DNA of 8,724 nt from Burkholderiaceae bacterium (GTDB taxonomy: Bacteria; Pseudomonadota; Gammaproteobacteria; Burkholderiales; Burkholderiaceae). The stretch's first letter is position 1, and every line of letters begins with the position of its first letter. Shown here one piece after another: positions 1 to 8,724 of the stretch. The notes beneath the pieces were generated by a model. That model made no database searches. It was not told where the DNA came from and saw only the letters and a program-made list of their open reading frames with translations. The DNA is taken from contig JALREG010000134.1 of the NCBI GenBank assembly GCA_023253905.1, positions 1 through 8,724 of the forward strand. The letters are read 5' to 3'. The translations under genes and the position numbers were made by a program.

Positions 1-132
1 CTCAAGCCCTTCGGTATCGACTCCGGCAGCGCGGGCCGGGGCTACCAGCCGGTCCACGCGGAACGGGGAGAACGCGCGATCGCCTGCGAAGACCTGCGCG
101 GTGATGCCCCCGGACGCGCTGCTCACCTGCAC
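1..132 (-). CDS. purL: Phosphoribosylformylglycinamidine (FGAM) synthase, N-terminal fragment (runs off left edge)
   Basis: Only the first 44 or so codons are in the window. The frame is open to the left edge and reads VQVSSASGG..., then FAGDRAFSPFRVDRLV. The 'G-x-x-AxSxFRxxRL' pattern is the usual opening of large, single-chain proteobacterial PurL, which makes FGAM from FGAR, glutamine and ATP in purine synthesis. The likely start is GTG at 132-130, two bases after the purB stop. A second in-frame GTG lies at 126-124, and a TTG inside purB (153-151) is also possible. No clear ribosome-binding site is seen, so translation may be coupled to purB. The neighbour being another purine gene supports the call. 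The identification rests on about 20 informative residues, so it is probable rather than certain. Confidence 0.6.
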   Translation of the reverse strand, partial: MQVSSASGGITAQVFAGDRAFSPFRVDRLVAPARAAGVDTEGLE

Positions 133-133
133 A

Positions 134-1573
<1,440 letters not shown>

Positions 1574-1677
1574 CTAGCACCCGTGCGCCGGACGCCCCTT
1601 CACGGAAGATCTGACCAATGCTGCGACGCCTTGATACAACGACGAAATTCTCATCCGTTCGAAGGATAGTCGATTGA

Positions 1678-1695
1678 TATACTCGAGAGCTCTCG
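1678..1695 (+). promoter_or_regulatory. Possible -10 element with adjoining 12-base palindrome upstream of the GST gene
   Basis: In the 238-base divergent spacer between purB and the GST gene, TATACT (1678-1683) matches the sigma-70 -10 consensus at five of six positions on the plus strand. It is directly followed by the perfect palindrome CGAGAGCTCTCG (1684-1695), which would cover the transcription start and so resembles an operator. No good -35 hexamer lies 16-18 bases upstream, so the promoter would be weak or activator-dependent. The rest of the spacer holds no other recognisable gene or RNA. Confidence 0.25.
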
Positions 1696-1769
1696 CCTGT
1701 CGGCCTCCCGAAGTCTGGTTTGTCCTGCAGAGCCTGGAAAAAACTCCTCCTTTCAGAGCAGATACCCTG

Positions 1770-2381
1770 ATGAAACTCGTCGGCTCCCACGGCAGTCCCT
1801 TCGCACGCAAAGTGCGCGTTGTGATGGCCGAGAAGAAAATCGATTGCCAGTTCGAGTCCATCAATGTGGCCGAAAGCCACGCCCACACGCTGCAGTTCAA
1901 TCCCCTCGGCAAGGTTCCTTACCTCGTCCTCGACGACGACGAAGTGTTGTTCGATTCACGCGTGATCGTTGACTACCTCGACAACCTCACCCCGGTGCAT
2001 CGTCTGATCCCGGCAAGCGGCCGCCCCCGCGCCGAGGTCAAGGTCTGGGAAGCGTTGGCTGATGGCATGCTCGAGGCGGCTGGTCTGATCAGACTCGAAT
2101 CCATGCGCCCGGAGGCACAGCAGAACGAAGCCTGGGTGCTCAAGCAGCAGAGCAAGGTCGATGCCGCACTCGCCGCGCTGTCAAAACGCCTGGGTGATCA
2201 TCCCTATTGCGTCGACGGCAAATATTCGCTCGCCGACATCGCGGTCGGCTGTGCACTGGGTTATCTGGCCTGGCGCTTCCCGCACCTGGAGTGGCGCCGC
2301 CACTACCCGAATCTGGGCGCGCTGGTTGACAAGCTGTCGGCGCGGCCAAGCTTCGCCGATACCCTGCCGCCGGCCAACTGA
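1770..2381 (+). CDS. Glutathione S-transferase family protein (YibF-like)
   Basis: This 203-residue soluble protein has the two-domain GST layout. The N-terminal thioredoxin-like domain (about 1-75) begins MKLVGSHGSPFARKVR, with a Ser at 9 in the position of the catalytic or GSH-activating residue. The cis-proline motif NPLGKVPYL follows (Pro 50), then FDS at 61-63, which normally contacts the gamma-glutamyl part of glutathione. The helical C-terminal domain carries the N-capping motif SLADIAVG (153-160). The opening and the cis-Pro region resemble E. coli YibF. Its substrate is unknown. The start chosen is ATG 1770, because the GST fold begins right there; an in-frame ATG at 1674 would add 32 residues unlike any GST. 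The site before the start is a weak Shine-Dalgarno match. The gene is divergent from purB and convergent with puhE, so it is probably transcribed alone. A role in oxidative or photo-oxidative stress is conceivable but only a guess from location. Confidence 0.9.
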   Translation: MKLVGSHGSPFARKVRVVMAEKKIDCQFESINVAESHAHTLQFNPLGKVPYLVLDDDEVLFDSRVIVDYLDNLTPVHRLIPASGRPRAEVKVWEALADGMLEAAGLIRLESMRPEAQQNEAWVLKQQSKVDAALAALSKRLGDHPYCVDGKYSLADIAVGCALGYLAWRFPHLEWRRHYPNLGALVDKLSARPSFADTLPPAN

Positions 2382-2452
2382 GGTCGCGCGCTCGCGTCGC
2401 TGCTGCCCTGCAAATAGTCGGGCTGACTTCAGTCGCGCAGCACTCGCCGCGC

Positions 2453-3205
2453 TCAGCCGCGCCCTTTCAGCGCCCAGCGCCATAGCGACTGCGGCTGCAT
2501 GGGAATGATGAGCAGCCAGTGCTCAACAATGGCGAGTACCAGGAGCGAGCCCACCAGCCCCAGCGCCGTTTCTTCATAGGCGCTGTCGGTTCTGACCGCC
2601 GCCACCCAAACGAGCACCGCAATCACGCTGGCCAGCCCGACGCTGAACGGGAAGAGCGCATTGAAGCGCCGACGCGAAAAATAACTGAGCAGGTAGTGAA
2701 GCGACGGCGGCAGAAAGGGCTCGTAAAAGTTTTTCACGCCCAGAAAAATATTGAGCTTGGCGCTCAGCCGCATCACCCATAGCACTAGCCACACCTGCGC
2801 TGCGACCGGATTGGGCGCGCTGAGGCTTGGCAGCAGCACCGCCACCCCCAGCAACAGCAGTGCGAGCTCGTGATGAGCAATGGCGGTAAAGGCATACCAC
2901 GCGCGGCGCCAACCCAACACAGGCGGGCAAGGCTCACGGTTCGGTCCGGTTACCAGCCCCAGCAAAAACGCCACCTCCTGCCACGCCCAGACCAGCACTG
3001 CCGACACAAAGGCGAGGTAGGCACCCAGCGGCGTGACGAGATCGCGCGTCACCACCACTCCCGCCATTCCAAGAAGCAGCAGAAGCGAGGCCGCAGCCAT
3101 GGCCTCACGCTGCCGGCCCGCCGAAGGCTGGATCGCGCGCAGCACCAGCCCGGTGGACAGCCACCACACGCCAAGCGTGAACGCGATGGGGACGAGAAGC
3201 GCCAC
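2453..3205 (-). CDS. puhE: Photosynthetic complex assembly protein PuhE (DUF3623 family)
   Basis: This 250-residue membrane protein has about seven hydrophobic segments, starting with LVPIAFTLGVWWLSTGLVL at residues 4-22. Typical PuhE features are the early VWWLSTGLVL segment, a central AIAHHELALL stretch near 109-118, the loop KLNIFLGVKNFYEPFLPP near 150-167, and a late EHWLLIIP near 230. PuhE modulates the levels of reaction centre and bacteriochlorophyll in purple bacteria, but its biochemical activity is not settled. The start is GTG at 3205-3203: an in-frame TGA lies three codons upstream, and this start brings in the first membrane segment. No strong Shine-Dalgarno sequence is seen. It lies 38 bases after acsF and is the last gene of the photosynthesis block. 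Its stop faces the GST stop across 71 bases in which I see no hairpin with a T-run. Confidence 0.92.
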   Translation of the reverse strand: MALLVPIAFTLGVWWLSTGLVLRAIQPSAGRQREAMAAASLLLLLGMAGVVVTRDLVTPLGAYLAFVSAVLVWAWQEVAFLLGLVTGPNREPCPPVLGWRRAWYAFTAIAHHELALLLLGVAVLLPSLSAPNPVAAQVWLVLWVMRLSAKLNIFLGVKNFYEPFLPPSLHYLLSYFSRRRFNALFPFSVGLASVIAVLVWVAAVRTDSAYEETALGLVGSLLVLAIVEHWLLIIPMQPQSLWRWALKGRG

Positions 3206-3243
3206 GGAGAATCAGGCTCGCTGCAGAGGCGGTGGGCGACGCA

Positions 3244-4320
3244 TCACCAGCTCGGCGCGAGCCGCGCATCGTCGGGTAGCCGATTCTCGCGTACCGGAAG
3301 CAGGAACATGCGGCTGAAGACAACGGCCGCCTGCGCCGCAAACAACCCGCGCCGGATCGTGGCCAGGACGCCCCCCTTCGCCTTTTCAGCATCAACCGCG
3401 TTCTGAAGGTCACGCAGACGATTCAGACCCGCGATGAATCGCGGATCGTCGTAACAGAGCGTGACCGGGAACACCTGCTTGCAGATCTCGGTGGTGATCG
3501 CAAATACCTTCTGATCGTATTCGGTGGGGTCGAGCCCGAGCGCCTGATGGAGCGCAGGCCGCGTGTGATCACGGACATACATGGTGGCAAACACGGCAAG
3601 CTGGAAGAACCGGATCCAGAGTCGGTTCACACCCGTGAGCAGTTTCGGATTGGCGCGCATGAGAAGCGCAAACGCCTCACCATGCCGGAACTCGTCATTG
3701 CACCATTTCTCGAACCACAGAAAGATGGGGTGAAAGCGAAGCTCGGGGTGACGCTCCACCTGCCGGTAAATCGTGATGTACCGCGCGTAGCCGATTTTTT
3801 CGGAGAGGTAGGTGGCGTAGAAAATGAATTTGGGCTTGAAGTAGGTGTACTTCTTCACCTTGGTGAGCAGCCCCAGATCAACGCCAATGCCAAAGTCTTT
3901 CAGCCATTGATTGATGAAGCCCGCATGTCGCGATTCGTCGCGAGCCATGTAGCCGAAGAGCGCCTTGATATCCGGGTTGTCCACCTTGCGGCGCAGTTCT
4001 GCGTAGAGCACGCAACCTGAGAACTCGGAAGTGATCGAGCTGATCAGGAAGTCAGTGAATTCCTTGTAGAGCTCGGGATCAAGCTTGGAGTAATCACGAT
4101 CCATATCGGCCGGCCGCTGGAAGTGATCGATATTGTTATCGCCCTCGAACTCAGCCATCAGCGCATTCCACTGCGGGCGGATGTGCTCGACCGAGATCCG
4201 ATTGATGGCATCCGCATCGGTCGTGTAGAACCGCGGCGAAATGAGGGACTCGGTCATTGCCTTGCGGGTGGATTCGCTGATCTCGTCGGGGCGACGTCCT
4301 GGCCTTTGCTCGGTACTCAT
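3244..4320 (-). CDS. acsF: Oxygen-dependent Mg-protoporphyrin IX monomethyl ester (oxidative) cyclase
   Basis: AcsF is the diiron enzyme that uses O2 to close the isocyclic (E) ring of chlorophylls, giving divinyl protochlorophyllide. With the ATG start the protein has 358 residues, normal for the proteobacterial type. The ferritin-like diiron ligands are visible: Glu in SITSEFSG near 99, Glu in LYAELRR near 108, ARDESRH at 126-132 and CNDEFRH at 207-213. The family motif RFYTTD is at 30-35. The ATG at 4320 has GGAG about eight bases upstream. The GTG just before it (4323) would add one residue and is too close to the GGAG to be preferred. The gene lies between puhC (23-base gap) and puhE, an arrangement known from betaproteobacterial phototrophs. 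The enzyme implies bacteriochlorophyll synthesis with oxygen present. Its substrate is made by BchM, whose gene is broken at the right of this window. Confidence 0.97.
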
Positions 4321-4343
4321 CACGGGATCTCCGGAAAATGAAC

Positions 4344-4886
4344 TTATCGGATGTTGAGATAGGACTGAAACACCGCTGCGTTGGCGGGTCCGAATACAGT
4401 GAGGTCCACCGTGCGGCCGGTGACCGGATCCAACAGGCGGAGGCTGCCGGCCGATTCGGCCCGCAGTTCAAACGGATCAGCGGGCGTGCCGCCCTGGCGA
4501 AGTCTCGCCTGTGCGAGGCCACGCAGCACCCCACGGGCAAATCCGGCCTCGCCCACAATCGGTTCGAGCGATTCGCGGGTGCGAGCGTCGATCACCTCTA
4601 CGCTGCCGTCGCGCGCATCGCGAAAGAGCAGTTGCCTGGAATCAAGCACCGCCACCACCGGCGGCGCCTCAGGCGCGTGCGCTTTCTGATATTGATGCCA
4701 AGCGGTAAATGCGAGGCTCCCCAGCACGGCGAGGCCAACCAGGGCAAGTGGCCAGCCTTCGATCCGGGGGCGTGCAGTAAGCGCAGGCATAGCCGCTCGC
4801 CCACTGCCAGGCCGCGATAGCGCGTGCCGACTCAACCCGCCTTCGGGTGGGTGCGCGCCGAGCGAATCGTCAGACGGTCTGTGCAT
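4344..4886 (-). CDS. puhC: Photosynthetic complex assembly protein PuhC
   Basis: This is a single-pass membrane protein of up to 180 residues. A basic, Pro-rich N-terminal tail (1-42) is followed by one hydrophobic segment at about 44-63 and a soluble, probably periplasmic domain. Family hallmarks are the [15 protein letters not shown] stretch (84-98), [14 protein letters not shown] (115-128) and the C-terminal [21 protein letters not shown] (153-173). PuhC is needed for normal reaction-centre/LH1 levels in Rhodobacter capsulatus; its exact action is unclear. The ATG at 4886 overlaps the end of puhB by 17 bases, which favours coupled translation. An internal ATG at 4790 (residue 33) would shorten the tail and keep the membrane segment. 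Neither start has a strong ribosome-binding site, so the N-terminus is uncertain. Confidence 0.9.
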
Positions 4887-5589
4887 GACCTATTTGTACG
4901 CTTTGAGGCGCGCTTTGAGGCACGCCATGTGCGAGCCCCTGTGCCCCCGCGTTCGATGCTGCACCGACCTGCACCCGTTCACCAGGCGGTTGGGCGGCTA
5001 GCCAGGCGTCGGTCAGTAGCGTAGCCGGTTCATCAACCGCGGCCAGCGCCCGCAGCATGGGCTGGGGGTGCGATAACCGCCAGGGCCGGGCATGCGGCCA
5101 CAAGTGCGCATAGGCGATCTTGTCATCGGGTAAAAGCTCGAGCACCAGATCGCCCGAGCCATCAGCGCGCCGCCTGACCTGCGCGCAGGCAATCCGACGG
5201 AAAGGCACATTGAAGGTGAGGCTCAGCACAATGCCGATCCGCATCACCACGCGCCGGTCGGTGATGGTGTAGACAGTGGTTCGAGCGGTGAGATCGGCAA
5301 GAAGCCACAGCAGACCCAGCCCAATTGCAAAACACGCCGCAGCCCAACTGGTGGATGCCAGCGCCTGCGCGACCGAACCGGTGTCATGTTGAACCAGCGC
5401 GAACCGAAGACCCAGCAGCAATACGAAATACACCGCCACCGCGCGCAGGTGGAACACATCGAGCGCGATACGGCGCCGCTGGGGCGAGCCCTGCCATAGC
5501 AGACGCTCACCGCTTGGCAGCGCCTCGGGCAGCCCGTGCTGCGGCTCGATCTCGTGTTCGTGCCCGAGGCTGTGGCGGTGTGCGCTCAT
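4870..5589 (-). CDS. puhB: Photosynthetic complex assembly protein PuhB (bacterial PH-like domain)
   Basis: The 239-residue membrane protein has the PuhB pattern: an N-terminal motif LPSGERLLWQGSP (24-36), two clear hydrophobic segments at about 48-66 and 82-101, then the bacterial PH-like domain starting TTVYTITDRRVVMRIGI (104-120) and FNVPFRRI (126-133). PuhB acts as a reaction-centre assembly factor and associates with the H subunit in Rhodobacter capsulatus. The start ATG at 5589 shares bases with the puhA stop (ATGA), a strong sign of translational coupling. The C-terminal 40 residues after PPGERVQ are rich in Ala, Gln and Ser, look poorly ordered and are not conserved in the family as far as I can tell. 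The gene overlaps puhC by 17 bases. Confidence 0.95.
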   Translation of the reverse strand: MSAHRHSLGHEHEIEPQHGLPEALPSGERLLWQGSPQRRRIALDVFHLRAVAVYFVLLLGLRFALVQHDTGSVAQALASTSWAAACFAIGLGLLWLLADLTARTTVYTITDRRVVMRIGIVLSLTFNVPFRRIACAQVRRRADGSGDLVLELLPDDKIAYAHLWPHARPWRLSHPQPMLRALAAVDEPATLLTDAWLAAQPPGERVQVGAASNAGAQGLAHGVPQSAPQSVQIGHAQTV

Positions 5590-6371
5590 AGGATCGGATC
5601 ACGACGGCCAGGGGTTGCGAAGAGCGTGCCTGCGCCGTAGTAACCCATCACCTTTTCTTCTTCGAAGAGCGTGATGCGATCGGGCCGGCGAAGTCCGGGT
5701 ACGCCCTCAAGCTGCTCACCACGAATCGCGCGTACGATGACCTTACGGCCATGGACCCGATCGGAGATCACACGGCAAAATGTGATGGGCAACATGACGC
5801 GGCGCCCCGCCGCAGTTTGCACCTCGAGGTAACGGATCATGTGCTCGGAGCGGTCCACCCAGATCTCGACCACCGTGCCGCCCGTCTTGTCATCAACGCC
5901 GATCACCGGCATGCCACGCGGATCCGCATCGCCCTCGACCAGGGAAAAGCCGGGCGCTGCCGCAAGGGGCACGATCTTGAGATCGCCATCCACCGTGAGA
6001 TCGGGCTCATCGGTTCGGCGCGTGAAGGCACCGGGTCCGATGCCGCTTGTCATGGGGTCGCCCGTAGGCTCAAAAGGCATCCCGGTGACTGGCGCTGCAC
6101 GCTCACCCTGCACGCGCGGCTCGTCGAAGTCACGCTCGTGCGGCGACGGGAAGTCACCATGAAACCGTGTGCGATACATCTTCACACTCGGCATCGGCAA
6201 AATACCAGGCTCGCGTTTGATCGACCCATCGCGCCGATCACTTTCAAGCGGGAACCCCTCACGCTTGCTTTCATACAGCAGATAAAACACCAGCCCTGCA
6301 AAAAACACCCAGAACACGTAGAGCACCATCTGCGCTACGTCGACATATTGGGTAATGGCACCTCTTCCCAT
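5586..6371 (-). CDS. puhA: Photosynthetic reaction centre H subunit
   Basis: The protein has 261 residues, close to the usual 255-260. It has one N-terminal transmembrane helix (about 12-32, beginning near DVAQMVLYVFWVFF) followed by KREGFPLE and a cytoplasmic beta-rich PRC-barrel domain with GMPVIGVDDKTGGTVVEIWVD and a C-terminal EEEKVMGYYGAGTL. The H subunit caps the L/M core and shapes proton delivery to the secondary quinone. The start is decided by GAGGAG exactly six bases before ATG 6371. The ATG at 6377 abuts that site and is too close, and the longer frame up to 6509 only reads into the end of lhaA. It follows lhaA by 25 bases and overlaps puhB by 4, so it sits within a single operon. 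A separate puhA promoter inside lhaA is possible but not visible by eye. Confidence 0.98.
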   Translation of the reverse strand: MGRGAITQYVDVAQMVLYVFWVFFAGLVFYLLYESKREGFPLESDRRDGSIKREPGILPMPSVKMYRTRFHGDFPSPHERDFDEPRVQGERAAPVTGMPFEPTGDPMTSGIGPGAFTRRTDEPDLTVDGDLKIVPLAAAPGFSLVEGDADPRGMPVIGVDDKTGGTVVEIWVDRSEHMIRYLEVQTAAGRRVMLPITFCRVISDRVHGRKVIVRAIRGEQLEGVPGLRRPDRITLFEEEKVMGYYGAGTLFATPGRRDPIL

Positions 6372-6377
6372 GGTCAT

Positions 6378-6383
6378 CTCCTC
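6378..6383 (-). promoter_or_regulatory. Ribosome-binding site of puhA
   Basis: GAGGAG on the minus strand is the strongest Shine-Dalgarno match in the photosynthesis block. It lies six bases before ATG 6371, separated by ATGACC, and so selects the inner of two in-frame ATGs. A stronger site than its neighbours would suit a structural subunit needed in larger amounts than the assembly factors around it; that last point is inference. Confidence 0.8.
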
Positions 6384-6396
6384 AAAAGGCATCCGC

Positions 6397-7827
6397 TCAG
6401 CCCGGAAATTCAGCCAGTCCGAAATTGCGGCGATCGCCGCCCTGCGCGCGCAGATCACGTACCAGCGGCCCGATTGCCGCCAGCGTTGCGAACAGCAGCG
6501 CCAGTTCAAGGTGGTAGACGGCGCTGTAGCCGACTCCCGCGTAATTCAGTACAGGCCCCAGGCCCCCGGAGAGCGCGAGGCTGCTCACCAGGTCGCGCAG
6601 CCATCCGCCTGCGGCGACGGCAAGACCCGCGGCGCTGGCCTGCGCCGCCCCCCACGCGCCCAGTGCAAGGCCATTCATGCCGTTCGATTCAAGATTCATG
6701 GCAGCGGTGAGCGTGCCAACGGAAAAAAGTCCGCCGCCGAAACCAATCAACACCGTCCCCGCCCGAAAGAGCGAGGGCGCCTCCAGAGGTTCGGCAAAAA
6801 TCACGAGCGAGAACGCAAACACACCCGCGACCGCTCCCCACGCCGCCAGTCGGTGCGGGTTCATGCCTTGCCGGAGCCGCGCCGCAGCCAATGCAAAAGC
6901 GGCCAGTGCACCCACTGACATGAACGCGGTCAGCACGCTGGTGGCCGATACCGATAGGCCCAACACCTCACCGCCGTAGGGCTCGAGAATGATGTCCTGC
7001 ATGGTGAACGCAGCCGTGCCCAGGAAGAGCGCCACCAGGAAGCGTCTTTGCCCAGGCTGGGCGGCGAAGTCGCGCCAGCTGTCGCGGAAGGCGGGCCGAA
7101 CAATCCCTGGATGTGTTTTTGAGGGGTTACGGGCCTCTTGCTTCCAGAGGGCCACCAGATTGAGCACGAACGCCACAAAGGCCGCGCCCTGGACCACCTT
7201 GATCAGCGTGATTTTGCTGAAATCGGCAAGGAGCAGGCTGAACACCAGACCGCTCACCACCATGCCCATCAGCAACATGGTGTACATCATGGCAACCACC
7301 CGCGGCCGATTTTCCTCGGCGGCCAGATCGGTCGCGAACGCGAGCCCTGCCGTCTGGACCGTCTGGATGCCCGCGCCCACCATCAGGAAGGCCAGCGCGG
7401 CCGACAGCGGGCCGATCCACTGCGGCCAGTGGGTATCGCCTGACAACAGGATGAGCGCGAAAGGCATGATGGCCAGCCCGCCAAACTGCAGCATGGTGCC
7501 GGCCCAGATGTACGGCACTCGCCGCCAGCCCAACACCGAACGATGCACATCTGAACGGAACCCCACCAACGCCCGGAACGGCGCGAACACGAGCGGCAGC
7601 GCAACCATGGTGGACACCAGCCATGCCGCCACGCCCAGTTCAACGATCAGCACGCGATTGAGGGTACCCACCAGAAGCGCGGTGGCCATGCCCACCGACA
7701 CCTGAAATAGCGCAAGCCGCAGAAGGCGCGACATCGGCAGATCGGGCGTGGCCAGATCAGCAAACGGGAGCCAGCGCGGGTCGATGCGTGACCAGCGTCG
7801 GGGCGAAAGCAGATCAAGCAGCATCAT
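6397..7827 (-). CDS. lhaA: Light-harvesting complex 1 assembly protein LhaA (PucC family, MFS-like)
   Basis: This 476-residue integral membrane protein has about 12 hydrophobic segments and belongs to the PucC/LhaA branch of the major facilitator superfamily. The N-terminus carries the expected PRWLPFADLATPDLP and SRLLRLALFQVSVGMA, followed by GTLNRVLIVELGV. The late segment reads GFGGGLFSVGTLTAAMNLE, a PucC-family hallmark, and the C-terminus ends FGLAEFPG. LhaA assists assembly of light-harvesting complex 1, probably by bringing together pigment and apoprotein. The start is ATG 7827, which overlaps the bchM stop as ATGA; a second ATG follows directly (7824). An upstream ATG (7899) would add 24 residues that lie entirely in the bchM-derived sequence and match nothing. 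AGGAA lies about 12 bases upstream. Its position between bchM and puhA is the standard purple-bacterial order. The gene looks intact. Confidence 0.95.
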   Translation of the reverse strand: MMLLDLLSPRRWSRIDPRWLPFADLATPDLPMSRLLRLALFQVSVGMATALLVGTLNRVLIVELGVAAWLVSTMVALPLVFAPFRALVGFRSDVHRSVLGWRRVPYIWAGTMLQFGGLAIMPFALILLSGDTHWPQWIGPLSAALAFLMVGAGIQTVQTAGLAFATDLAAEENRPRVVAMMYTMLLMGMVVSGLVFSLLLADFSKITLIKVVQGAAFVAFVLNLVALWKQEARNPSKTHPGIVRPAFRDSWRDFAAQPGQRRFLVALFLGTAAFTMQDIILEPYGGEVLGLSVSATSVLTAFMSVGALAAFALAAARLRQGMNPHRLAAWGAVAGVFAFSLVIFAEPLEAPSLFRAGTVLIGFGGGLFSVGTLTAAMNLESNGMNGLALGAWGAAQASAAGLAVAAGGWLRDLVSSLALSGGLGPVLNYAGVGYSAVYHLELALLFATLAAIGPLVRDLRAQGGDRRNFGLAEFPG

Positions 7828-8135
7828 CGCCGGATGAGTTCCTGCGCCTGCGAAGTGTAAAAGCCGCGGGCCACGCGCTCGGTACGAGCCAGTCGCCAAC
7901 CTAGCGGGCCCAGTGCCTCGGCAAGCATCCGGTGCATCCGCTCGGGCGCAACCGGCACGATGGCAGGCGAGCGATCACCACGAGGGAAGAGCCTTCCCGC
8001 CATCATCATCATGCGAAGCGGCAGGCTGCCCGGTGCAAAGGTGAAGACGATTGAGCGCCGCACTCTGGGCGCGACCGCCACGAGCGCCGCCACCGCCTGC
8101 TCGGGCGCGTAGTGAATGAGCGAGTCCATCGCCAC
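7824..8135 (-). pseudogene. bchM: 3' fragment of Mg-protoporphyrin IX O-methyltransferase gene
   Basis: From VAMDSLIHY (ORF residues 157-165) to the C-terminus the protein follows BchM: SIVFTFAP (184-191), GRLFPRGDRSPAIVPV (203-218) and the ending RVARGFYTSQAQELIRR. BchM transfers a methyl group from SAM to the C13 propionate of Mg-protoporphyrin IX, making the substrate of AcsF. The missing 5' part would encode the SAM-binding Rossmann motif (DxGxGxG type), so this fragment cannot be a working methyltransferase. The bchM-lhaA-puhA order is the expected one, and the ATGA overlap with lhaA is preserved. The left-hand side of the join is therefore native sequence and the right-hand side is the intruder. 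Confidence 0.85.
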
Positions 8136-8603
8136 CAGGCCGCTCTCGGCCTGCACCAGCAGGTCATAGGCCTTGAGGCCAAAGAAACGCCCATCGTCGC
8201 CATAGCCGCTGATGTCGCAGGTCACCAGGTGCGGATGGCGTGCGCGCAAAGCGGCCGAGCCGATGCCCAGGCGCTCGGTGGCACCCGGTGCGAGGTTCTG
8301 GATGAACACATCGGCCTGGGCCAGCATGCGTTCGAGCAATTGCAAATCGTCGGCCTGTTTGAGGTTGAGCGCGATCGATTCCTTGCCGCGGTTGGTCCAG
8401 ACCCAGTACGAGGATTCGCCATGCACGGCGCGGTCATAGCCGCGTGCGAAGTCGCCTTCGGGGCGCTCGATCTTGATCACGCGGGCGCCGGCATCGGCCA
8501 GGCGGCTGCTGCAGTAGGGGGCGGCCACGGCCTGCTCCAAGGCAACGACCAGGATGCCGTCCAGCGGACGGGCATTCGGGTGGGCGGGGGGTGAACTGCT
8601 CAT
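7824..8603 (-). CDS. Chimeric ORF: CoA-transferase N-terminus joined in frame to BchM C-terminus
   Basis: One uninterrupted frame of 259 codons contains parts of two unrelated proteins. Residues 1 to about 155 are the N-terminal half of a CaiB/BaiF (class III) CoA-transferase. Residues from about 157 to 259 are the C-terminal part of Mg-protoporphyrin IX O-methyltransferase (BchM). The join lies at the codons for GLVAMD (8141-8124). Class III CoA-transferases are usually near 400 residues and BchM about 220-240, so both are cut. The start ATG 8603 has GGAG five bases upstream and is the natural CoA-transferase start; the stop is the natural bchM stop overlapping lhaA. The product probably has neither activity. 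It may be a genuine rearrangement or an assembly artefact. I know of no family with this domain order. Confidence 0.85.
   Translation of the reverse strand: MSSSPPAHPNARPLDGILVVALEQAVAAPYCSSRLADAGARVIKIERPEGDFARGYDRAVHGESSYWVWTNRGKESIALNLKQADDLQLLERMLAQADVFIQNLAPGATERLGIGSAALRARHPHLVTCDISGYGDDGRFFGLKAYDLLVQAESGLVAMDSLIHYAPEQAVAALVAVAPRVRRSIVFTFAPGSLPLRMMMMAGRLFPRGDRSPAIVPVAPERMHRMLAEALGPLGWRLARTERVARGFYTSQAQELIRR
8136..8603 (-). pseudogene. 5' fragment of CaiB/BaiF-family (class III) CoA-transferase gene
   Basis: Residues 1-156 match the start of class III CoA-transferases: PLDGILVVALEQAVAAPYC (13-31), RLADAGARVIKIERPEGDFAR (34-54), the NRGKESIALNLK stretch (71-82), ADVFIQNLAPGATERLG (97-113), LVTCDISGYGDDG (126-138) and KAYDLLVQAESG (144-155). 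Asp 147 in AYDLL corresponds to the catalytic Asp that forms the acyl-anhydride intermediate in this family. These enzymes move CoA between carboxylic acids and work as interlocked dimers built from the full chain. About 240 C-terminal residues are absent here, so activity is unlikely. The specific acid substrate cannot be told from this half. It lies downstream of a possible acyl-CoA dehydrogenase end, a natural partner in an acyl-CoA catabolic operon. Confidence 0.85.
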
Positions 8604-8685
8604 GCGGTCTCCGGTCTGGGCATGTTGGCGCGGACGAACAAAAAGGAACGGGCCCTGGCGATGGTGGCGGCAGGCATGGCTAGCT

Positions 8686-8724
8686 TTAGAAAGAGCGGGG
8701 CAGGCCCAGGACGTGCTCGGCCAC
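8686..8724 (-). CDS. C-terminal end of a possible acyl-CoA dehydrogenase (enters from right edge)
   Basis: The minus-strand frame from the right edge reads VAEHVLGLPRSF and then TAA (8688-8686). Acyl-CoA dehydrogenases often end with a helix of the type 'I-A-x-x-V-L-G-L-P', and such genes are often followed by a CaiB/BaiF CoA-transferase, as here (82-base gap). Only 12 residues are available, so this is a context-supported guess. The 82 bases between this stop and the CoA-transferase start hold no hairpin or promoter I can defend, which is compatible with one operon. Confidence 0.4.
   Translation of the reverse strand: MAEHVLGLPRSF

Follow-up and report, generated by a model that had tools for sequence, protein, structure and literature searches.

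The question raised by this locus is whether an open reading frame (ORF) that begins as one protein family and ends as another encodes a new fusion protein, records a rearrangement of photosynthesis genes or results from a false join. The window, by which we mean the whole stretch of DNA analyzed here (8,724 nucleotides), carries a frame that switches at positions 8124-8141 from a class III CoA-transferase to BchM, the magnesium protoporphyrin IX O-methyltransferase (TIGR02021), without a change of reading frame (Table 1). An earlier note on this DNA had claimed such a switch, and the ORF and its Pfam domains bear it out: CoA_transf_3 lies on residues 14-162 (profile positions 1-150 of 366, 1.2e-51) and Mg-por_mtran_C on residues 158-258 (profile positions 1-97 of 97, 3.1e-27). 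The motif GLVAMD, residues 155-160 of the ORF, corresponds exactly to window positions 8141-8124. Most likely, the apparent fusion is an ordinary bacteriochlorophyll gene falsely joined to an ordinary CoA-transferase gene, and no discovery. We regard it as highly probable that the junction is an artifact, a chimera formed close to where the assembled sequence ends.

Table 1. Coordinates of the chimeric ORF, its parts and the neighboring features in the window
Feature	Position	Strand	Remarks
Chimeric ORF, 259 aa	7824..8603	-	N-terminal part of a class III CoA-transferase and C-terminal part of BchM
5' part of class III CoA-transferase gene	8130..8603	-	ORF residues 1-158, 100% identical to P0001; stops before conserved Asp (P0001 D179)
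3' part of bchM	7824..8138	-	ORF residues 156-259 and stop codon, 100% identical to P0121 residues 140-243; lacks the SAM-binding motif
Shared junction stretch CCTGGTGGCGAT	8128..8139	-	Present in bchM of L036, L001 and L002; CoA-transferase side inferred from the identical LVA residues
lhaA (PucC-type assembly factor) ORF	6397..7899	-	Mechanical TTG start; ATG overlapping the bchM stop codon
puhA, puhB, puhC, acsF, puhE	2453..6509	-	Remainder of the photosynthesis operon, colinear with L002
End of window, 585 bp	8140..8724	.	Not colinear with relatives
Last codons of a gene ending in VAEHVLGLPRSF and a stop codon	8686..8724	-	Relatives also have this tail upstream of class III CoA-transferase genes

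Both halves of the ORF have intact parents. With the whole ORF as the query, a search of 5.8 billion proteins ranked P0001 first, a complete CoA-transferase of 399 aa (cluster of eight member sequences; one contig of 3626 bp, source 'ena'). Its amino acid identity to ORF residues 1-158 is 100%, and divergence begins after residue 158 (window position 8130), where P0001 continues as ISGAPGQG... A query with residues 159-259 returned a 100% match to P0121, a complete BchM of 243 aa in which the shared part is preceded by ...GDFDH (cluster of 33 member sequences; one contig of 3127 bp, source 'ena'). Searching each half separately, as the earlier note had advised, thus gave clear limits, the alignments stopping at P0001 residue 158 and starting at P0121 residue 140. 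It was also correct in calling both parent proteins incomplete: the ORF covers positions 1-150 of PF02515, short of a full-length match, whereas intact P0001 covers 1-365 of the 366 positions, and P0121 residues 1-139 are missing. The existence of both parents intact at 100% amino acid identity favors an artifact.

On the BchM side, the breakpoint was resolved to a single base, because DNA similarity to the bchM loci L036 (95%), L001 and L002 starts at window position 8139, at CCTGGTGGCGATGG. A residue-by-residue comparison identified LVA (window positions 8130-8138) as the overlap common to the P0001-identical and P0121-identical parts, since identity to P0001 runs through residue 158 (window position 8130) and the match to bchM sets in at 8139. 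The DNA shared at the junction would amount to approximately 9-12 bp, as judged on the CoA-transferase side from the protein: the CoA-transferase parent must encode LVA followed by Ile (AT.), so 9-12 bp are possibly shared. The shared stretch CTGGTGGC(GATG) guessed previously was essentially right. Among nine distinct related CoA-transferase loci, two (L049 and L054) carry CTGGTGGCG at the site of the junction, three (L046, L047 and L048) have CTGGTG followed by a different codon, and the remaining four (L050, L051, L052 and L055) differ before this site.

The position of the break bears on what the ORF product could do. P0001 D179 aligns with D in all 120 aligned relatives and also in the three solved chains shown; we take this residue to be the active-site Asp of class III CoA-transferases. 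In formyl-CoA transferase, Asp169 is the catalytic residue. A motif written for the Asp region proved too strict: it matched just 74 of the 120 relatives, whereas the alignment has D in every one. Because the break at residue 158 precedes D179, the conserved Asp is absent from the ORF. Although residues 1-158 are identical to a protein of a family (PF02515) whose relatives bear source names such as itaconate CoA-transferase and CaiB-like, the ORF thus differs from a class III CoA-transferase in lacking residues 159-399. Similarly, residues 156-259 are identical to the C terminus of an intact BchM, but the N-terminal part, P0121 residues 1-139, has been replaced. The SAM-binding motif LLDAGCGTG begins at P0121 residue 75, before the break at residue 140, and is consequently absent. 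The corresponding pattern D.GCG occurs in 118 of the best 120 of 4542 relatives, the two without it being P0122 (157 aa) and P0205. Against the BchM-ChlM NCBIfam profile, the ORF scored 86.1 bits over profile positions 122-217 only, below the cut-off of 158.9, and intact P0121 scored 211.7 bits. With the SAM-binding motif and the conserved Asp both lost at the break, neither methyltransferase nor CoA-transferase activity would be expected of the ORF product. The loss of the active site from both halves likewise favors an artifact.

These observations weigh on the suggestion that the join, if real, yields a new fusion protein, in which the C-terminal domain of BchM would stand under a CoA-transferase start. 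The frame is indeed open across the join, and the C-terminal domain PF07109 is complete (profile positions 1-97 of 97), but both active sites are gone, the BchM-ChlM score falls short, and no relative of such architecture is present among the best 120 of 7998 relatives of the whole ORF or the best 120 of 4542 relatives of residues 159-259. The BchM-like pattern D.[LMV]IHY was found in 0 of the former 120 and AESGL in 0 of the latter 120; a fusion ranking below these best matches could be missed. Selection acting on a fusion would be visible as divergence from the parents, but neither half differs from its parent. A functional fusion protein is accordingly the reading to which we give least credence, and we consider it extremely improbable.

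The surrounding genes show where the ordinary locus departs from the window. A scan with the LhaA protein collected 37 loci, among which L036 matches the window from 8139 at 95% DNA identity (406 aligned bases), L001 at 84-91% and L002 at 88% from the same position, and L003 from 8138 at 72-76%. L002 is colinear with the window from 8139 down to 192, into purB. All four of these nearest relatives (72-95% DNA identity) carry a complete bchM beyond the junction point, directly preceding lhaA, and in L036, L002 and L003 the bchM ATG marks the end of a bchL-type frame (bchL confirmed in L036; the upstream sequence of L001 is too short to judge). An artifact is supported by these four loci, all of which part from the window at 8139 or 8138 and run on into a complete bchM. 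The window resembles a bchL-bchM-lhaA arrangement in that lhaA, puhA, puhB, puhC, acsF and puhE come after the bchM part, and a list of Rhodobacteraceae genes gives the same lhaA-puh-acsF-puhE set behind bchM, where the final two genes shown are acsF and puhE (PMC6052148). In the window, the lhaA ATG overlaps the bchM stop codon (positions 7820-7830, minus strand; CGGCGATGATG), and the bchM ATG overlaps the bchL stop codon in L036, L002 and L003; these two overlaps make translational coupling likely. The record of L002 is titled Bordetella parapertussis (a metagenome bin), a name that looks wrong because its photosynthesis cluster is nearly the same as that of L001, a Burkholderiales metagenome bin.

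With P0121 as the query, BchM was complete or nearly so in 29 of the 37 LhaA loci and cut by the contig end in two (L015 and L037). No BchM match was obtained in six (L023 and L031-L035), five of which start inside lhaA. In the gammaproteobacterial locus L023, loosening the threshold still revealed no BchM within 8 kb of lhaA, and the distance between bchM and lhaA exceeds 1 kb in L013 and other Gemmatimonadota loci. The conserved bch-lhaA-puh order named in the earlier note thus holds in the nearest relatives, in which bchM precedes lhaA, although this neighborhood is not universal.

The departure from the relatives' synteny is restricted to the last 585 bp of the window. Compared with L036 over 585 colinear bases, the sequence past 8139 is 23% identical, which corresponds to chance. 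This terminal position of the foreign part favors an artifact. The right-hand 585 bp look like an ordinary CoA-transferase locus, judging from the sequence. The tail VAEHVLGLPRSF, which we presume to be acyl-CoA dehydrogenase-like, lies upstream of the CoA-transferase part as it does in some relatives. Among the loci from the CoA-transferase search, it occurs in 15, exactly in eight and with one change in seven; 14 of these 15 contain more distant CoA-transferases, 45-48% identical to P0001. Of the nine distinct loci whose CoA-transferase shares at least 70% identity with P0001, L052 alone has the tail, and a pattern search found it in none of the five loci of the phototroph's genus that have 48-49% CoA-transferase homologs. 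The tail was therefore rejected as proof of a single native locus, and supports a CoA-transferase neighborhood only in general. Between it and the CoA-transferase start lies a short frame, MPAATIARARSFLFVRANMPRPETA followed by a stop codon (window positions 8600-8677, minus strand), presumably resembling a truncated CoA ester lyase start and considered as the mark of a possible second junction. This frame gave only weak matches in the loci examined, one of which, ARSYLFVPADRP (E 1.0), is located just downstream of the L072 CoA-transferase gene. The G+C content of 8140-8724 is 0.663, compared with a mean of 0.625 (sd 0.033, range 0.545-0.677) for 585-base windows of 1-8139, and third-position G+C on the CoA-transferase side is 0.829 versus 0.698-0.760 in four other genes. 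Composition was set aside as a test of two sources, because G+C fails to separate the parts and is suggestive only.

Full-length BchM, at 81-99% identity, is encoded by all five genomes of the phototroph's genus, to which the genome of L036 belongs, and none of these five genomes, whose completeness is not stated, contains a CoA-transferase nearer to P0001 than 48-49% amino acid identity. The CoA-transferase part is therefore probably from another bacterium, as far as the sequence comparisons go. The absence of a close CoA-transferase relative from the five genus genomes also favors an artifact. Given only five genomes of unstated completeness, a single strain of the genus could carry such a CoA-transferase, and the join could then have a within-genome origin. 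Within the family (74 genomes), 11 genomes contain the P0001 type (E <= 1e-140), none of them in the genus, and 26 contain BchM (E <= 1e-40). Both gene types occurred together in eight (G005, G027, G038, G041, G043, G046, G053 and G056), on different contigs and always outside the genus. The best DNA match to the CoA-transferase part among the 74 family genomes was 83%, in G027, and no match above 83% was found in 399 sampled genomes of the order (E <= 1e-90, two candidates scored per genome). The 48% CoA-transferase homolog of G001 (L088) contains one TAA inside its frame and is either a pseudogene or an assembly error.

A recent illegitimate recombination in one strain, joining an own or acquired CoA-transferase locus to bchM through 9-12 bp of microhomology, would have destroyed bchM, so that the strain would be non-phototrophic and its fusion ORF dead. 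The shared stretch at the join is as such an event would leave it, and eight of the 74 family genomes possess both gene types at the cut-offs used. Yet no CoA-transferase relative above 49% amino acid identity exists in the five genus genomes, no second assembly with the join appeared in the collections searched, the join affects just the terminal 585 bp of the window, and the downstream photosynthesis genes are open full-length frames, as in a working cluster, with which a very recent event is equally compatible. We consider this recombination unlikely. Slightly more doubtful still is the specific case of a real strain in which a microhomology rearrangement cut bchM at LVAMDSL and placed lhaA-puh-acsF behind the promoter of the CoA-transferase locus; if true, it would represent loss of phototrophy or rewired expression caught in the act. 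A real join would be a snapshot of bacteriochlorophyll synthesis being lost.

Recurrence of the join was sought in the protein collection, the 74 family genomes and viral contigs. No fusion was found among the best 120 matches of either protein query, the junction pattern with up to three mismatches was found in 0 of the 74 family genomes, and viral contigs contained no exact junction pattern. A check of related genomes for the same join, as had been proposed, thus went against it, the four nearest loci carrying a complete bchM instead. An open frame of 845 aa in G027 was rejected as a true BchM fusion, because it crosses bchL in a different reading frame and BchM starts independently of it. 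The literature collection searched yielded no publication on a CoA-transferase/BchM fusion and none on chimeric contigs with microhomology. Confinement of the join to this one assembly, within the collections searched, again favors an artifact.

For the chimeric join, we propose that true phototroph DNA would stop at approximately 8139, within an ordinary bchM of which the window lacks the 5' part. To this truncated gene, 585 bp of a CoA-transferase locus, probably another bacterium's, would have been attached at the short shared stretch of approximately 9-12 bp (CCTGGTGGCGAT). We infer an in vitro or in silico origin of the join, and also that the end of the window is a contig end. The window resembles chimeric contigs or reads joined at microhomology in having two intact parents, a break at a short shared stretch, a foreign part at the sequence end and no other occurrence of the join in the collections searched. 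The reading frame is preserved across the join, for which the chance is approximately 1 in 3, and we counted this against an artifact. The earlier note had left misassembly and illegitimate recombination side by side; we favor the artifact, but doubt that it was k-mer-driven, since assemblers usually work with k-mers longer than a 12-bp overlap. A better fit would be contigs joined over a short overlap or a chimeric library molecule produced by annealing or template switching. Single strands with microhomology are reported to mis-anneal during end repair (PMC8674242). In a Salmonella study, a microhomology of at least 8-12 bp, depending on type, led junctions to be judged real rearrangements, and 22 of 30 tested were verified (PMC3411829). 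Microhomology of the present size is thus found at true bacterial rearrangements, and the shared stretch exceeds the expectation for random ligation as given there, which counts against a simple ligation chimera. The Salmonella comparison concerns one genome, and two organisms seem to be involved here.

The main value of the case is as a caution: chimerism can produce a two-domain ORF that is open and in frame close to the end of a sequence, and such ORFs are resolved when each half is compared with its intact parent. A distant contig (L037, positions 1-20; BchM 51% identical) stops at the conserved bchM motif, GCGATGGACTCG, at which the window junction also lies. Based on these two cases, the motif is possibly a spot at which assemblies tend to break, or the coincidence is due to chance.
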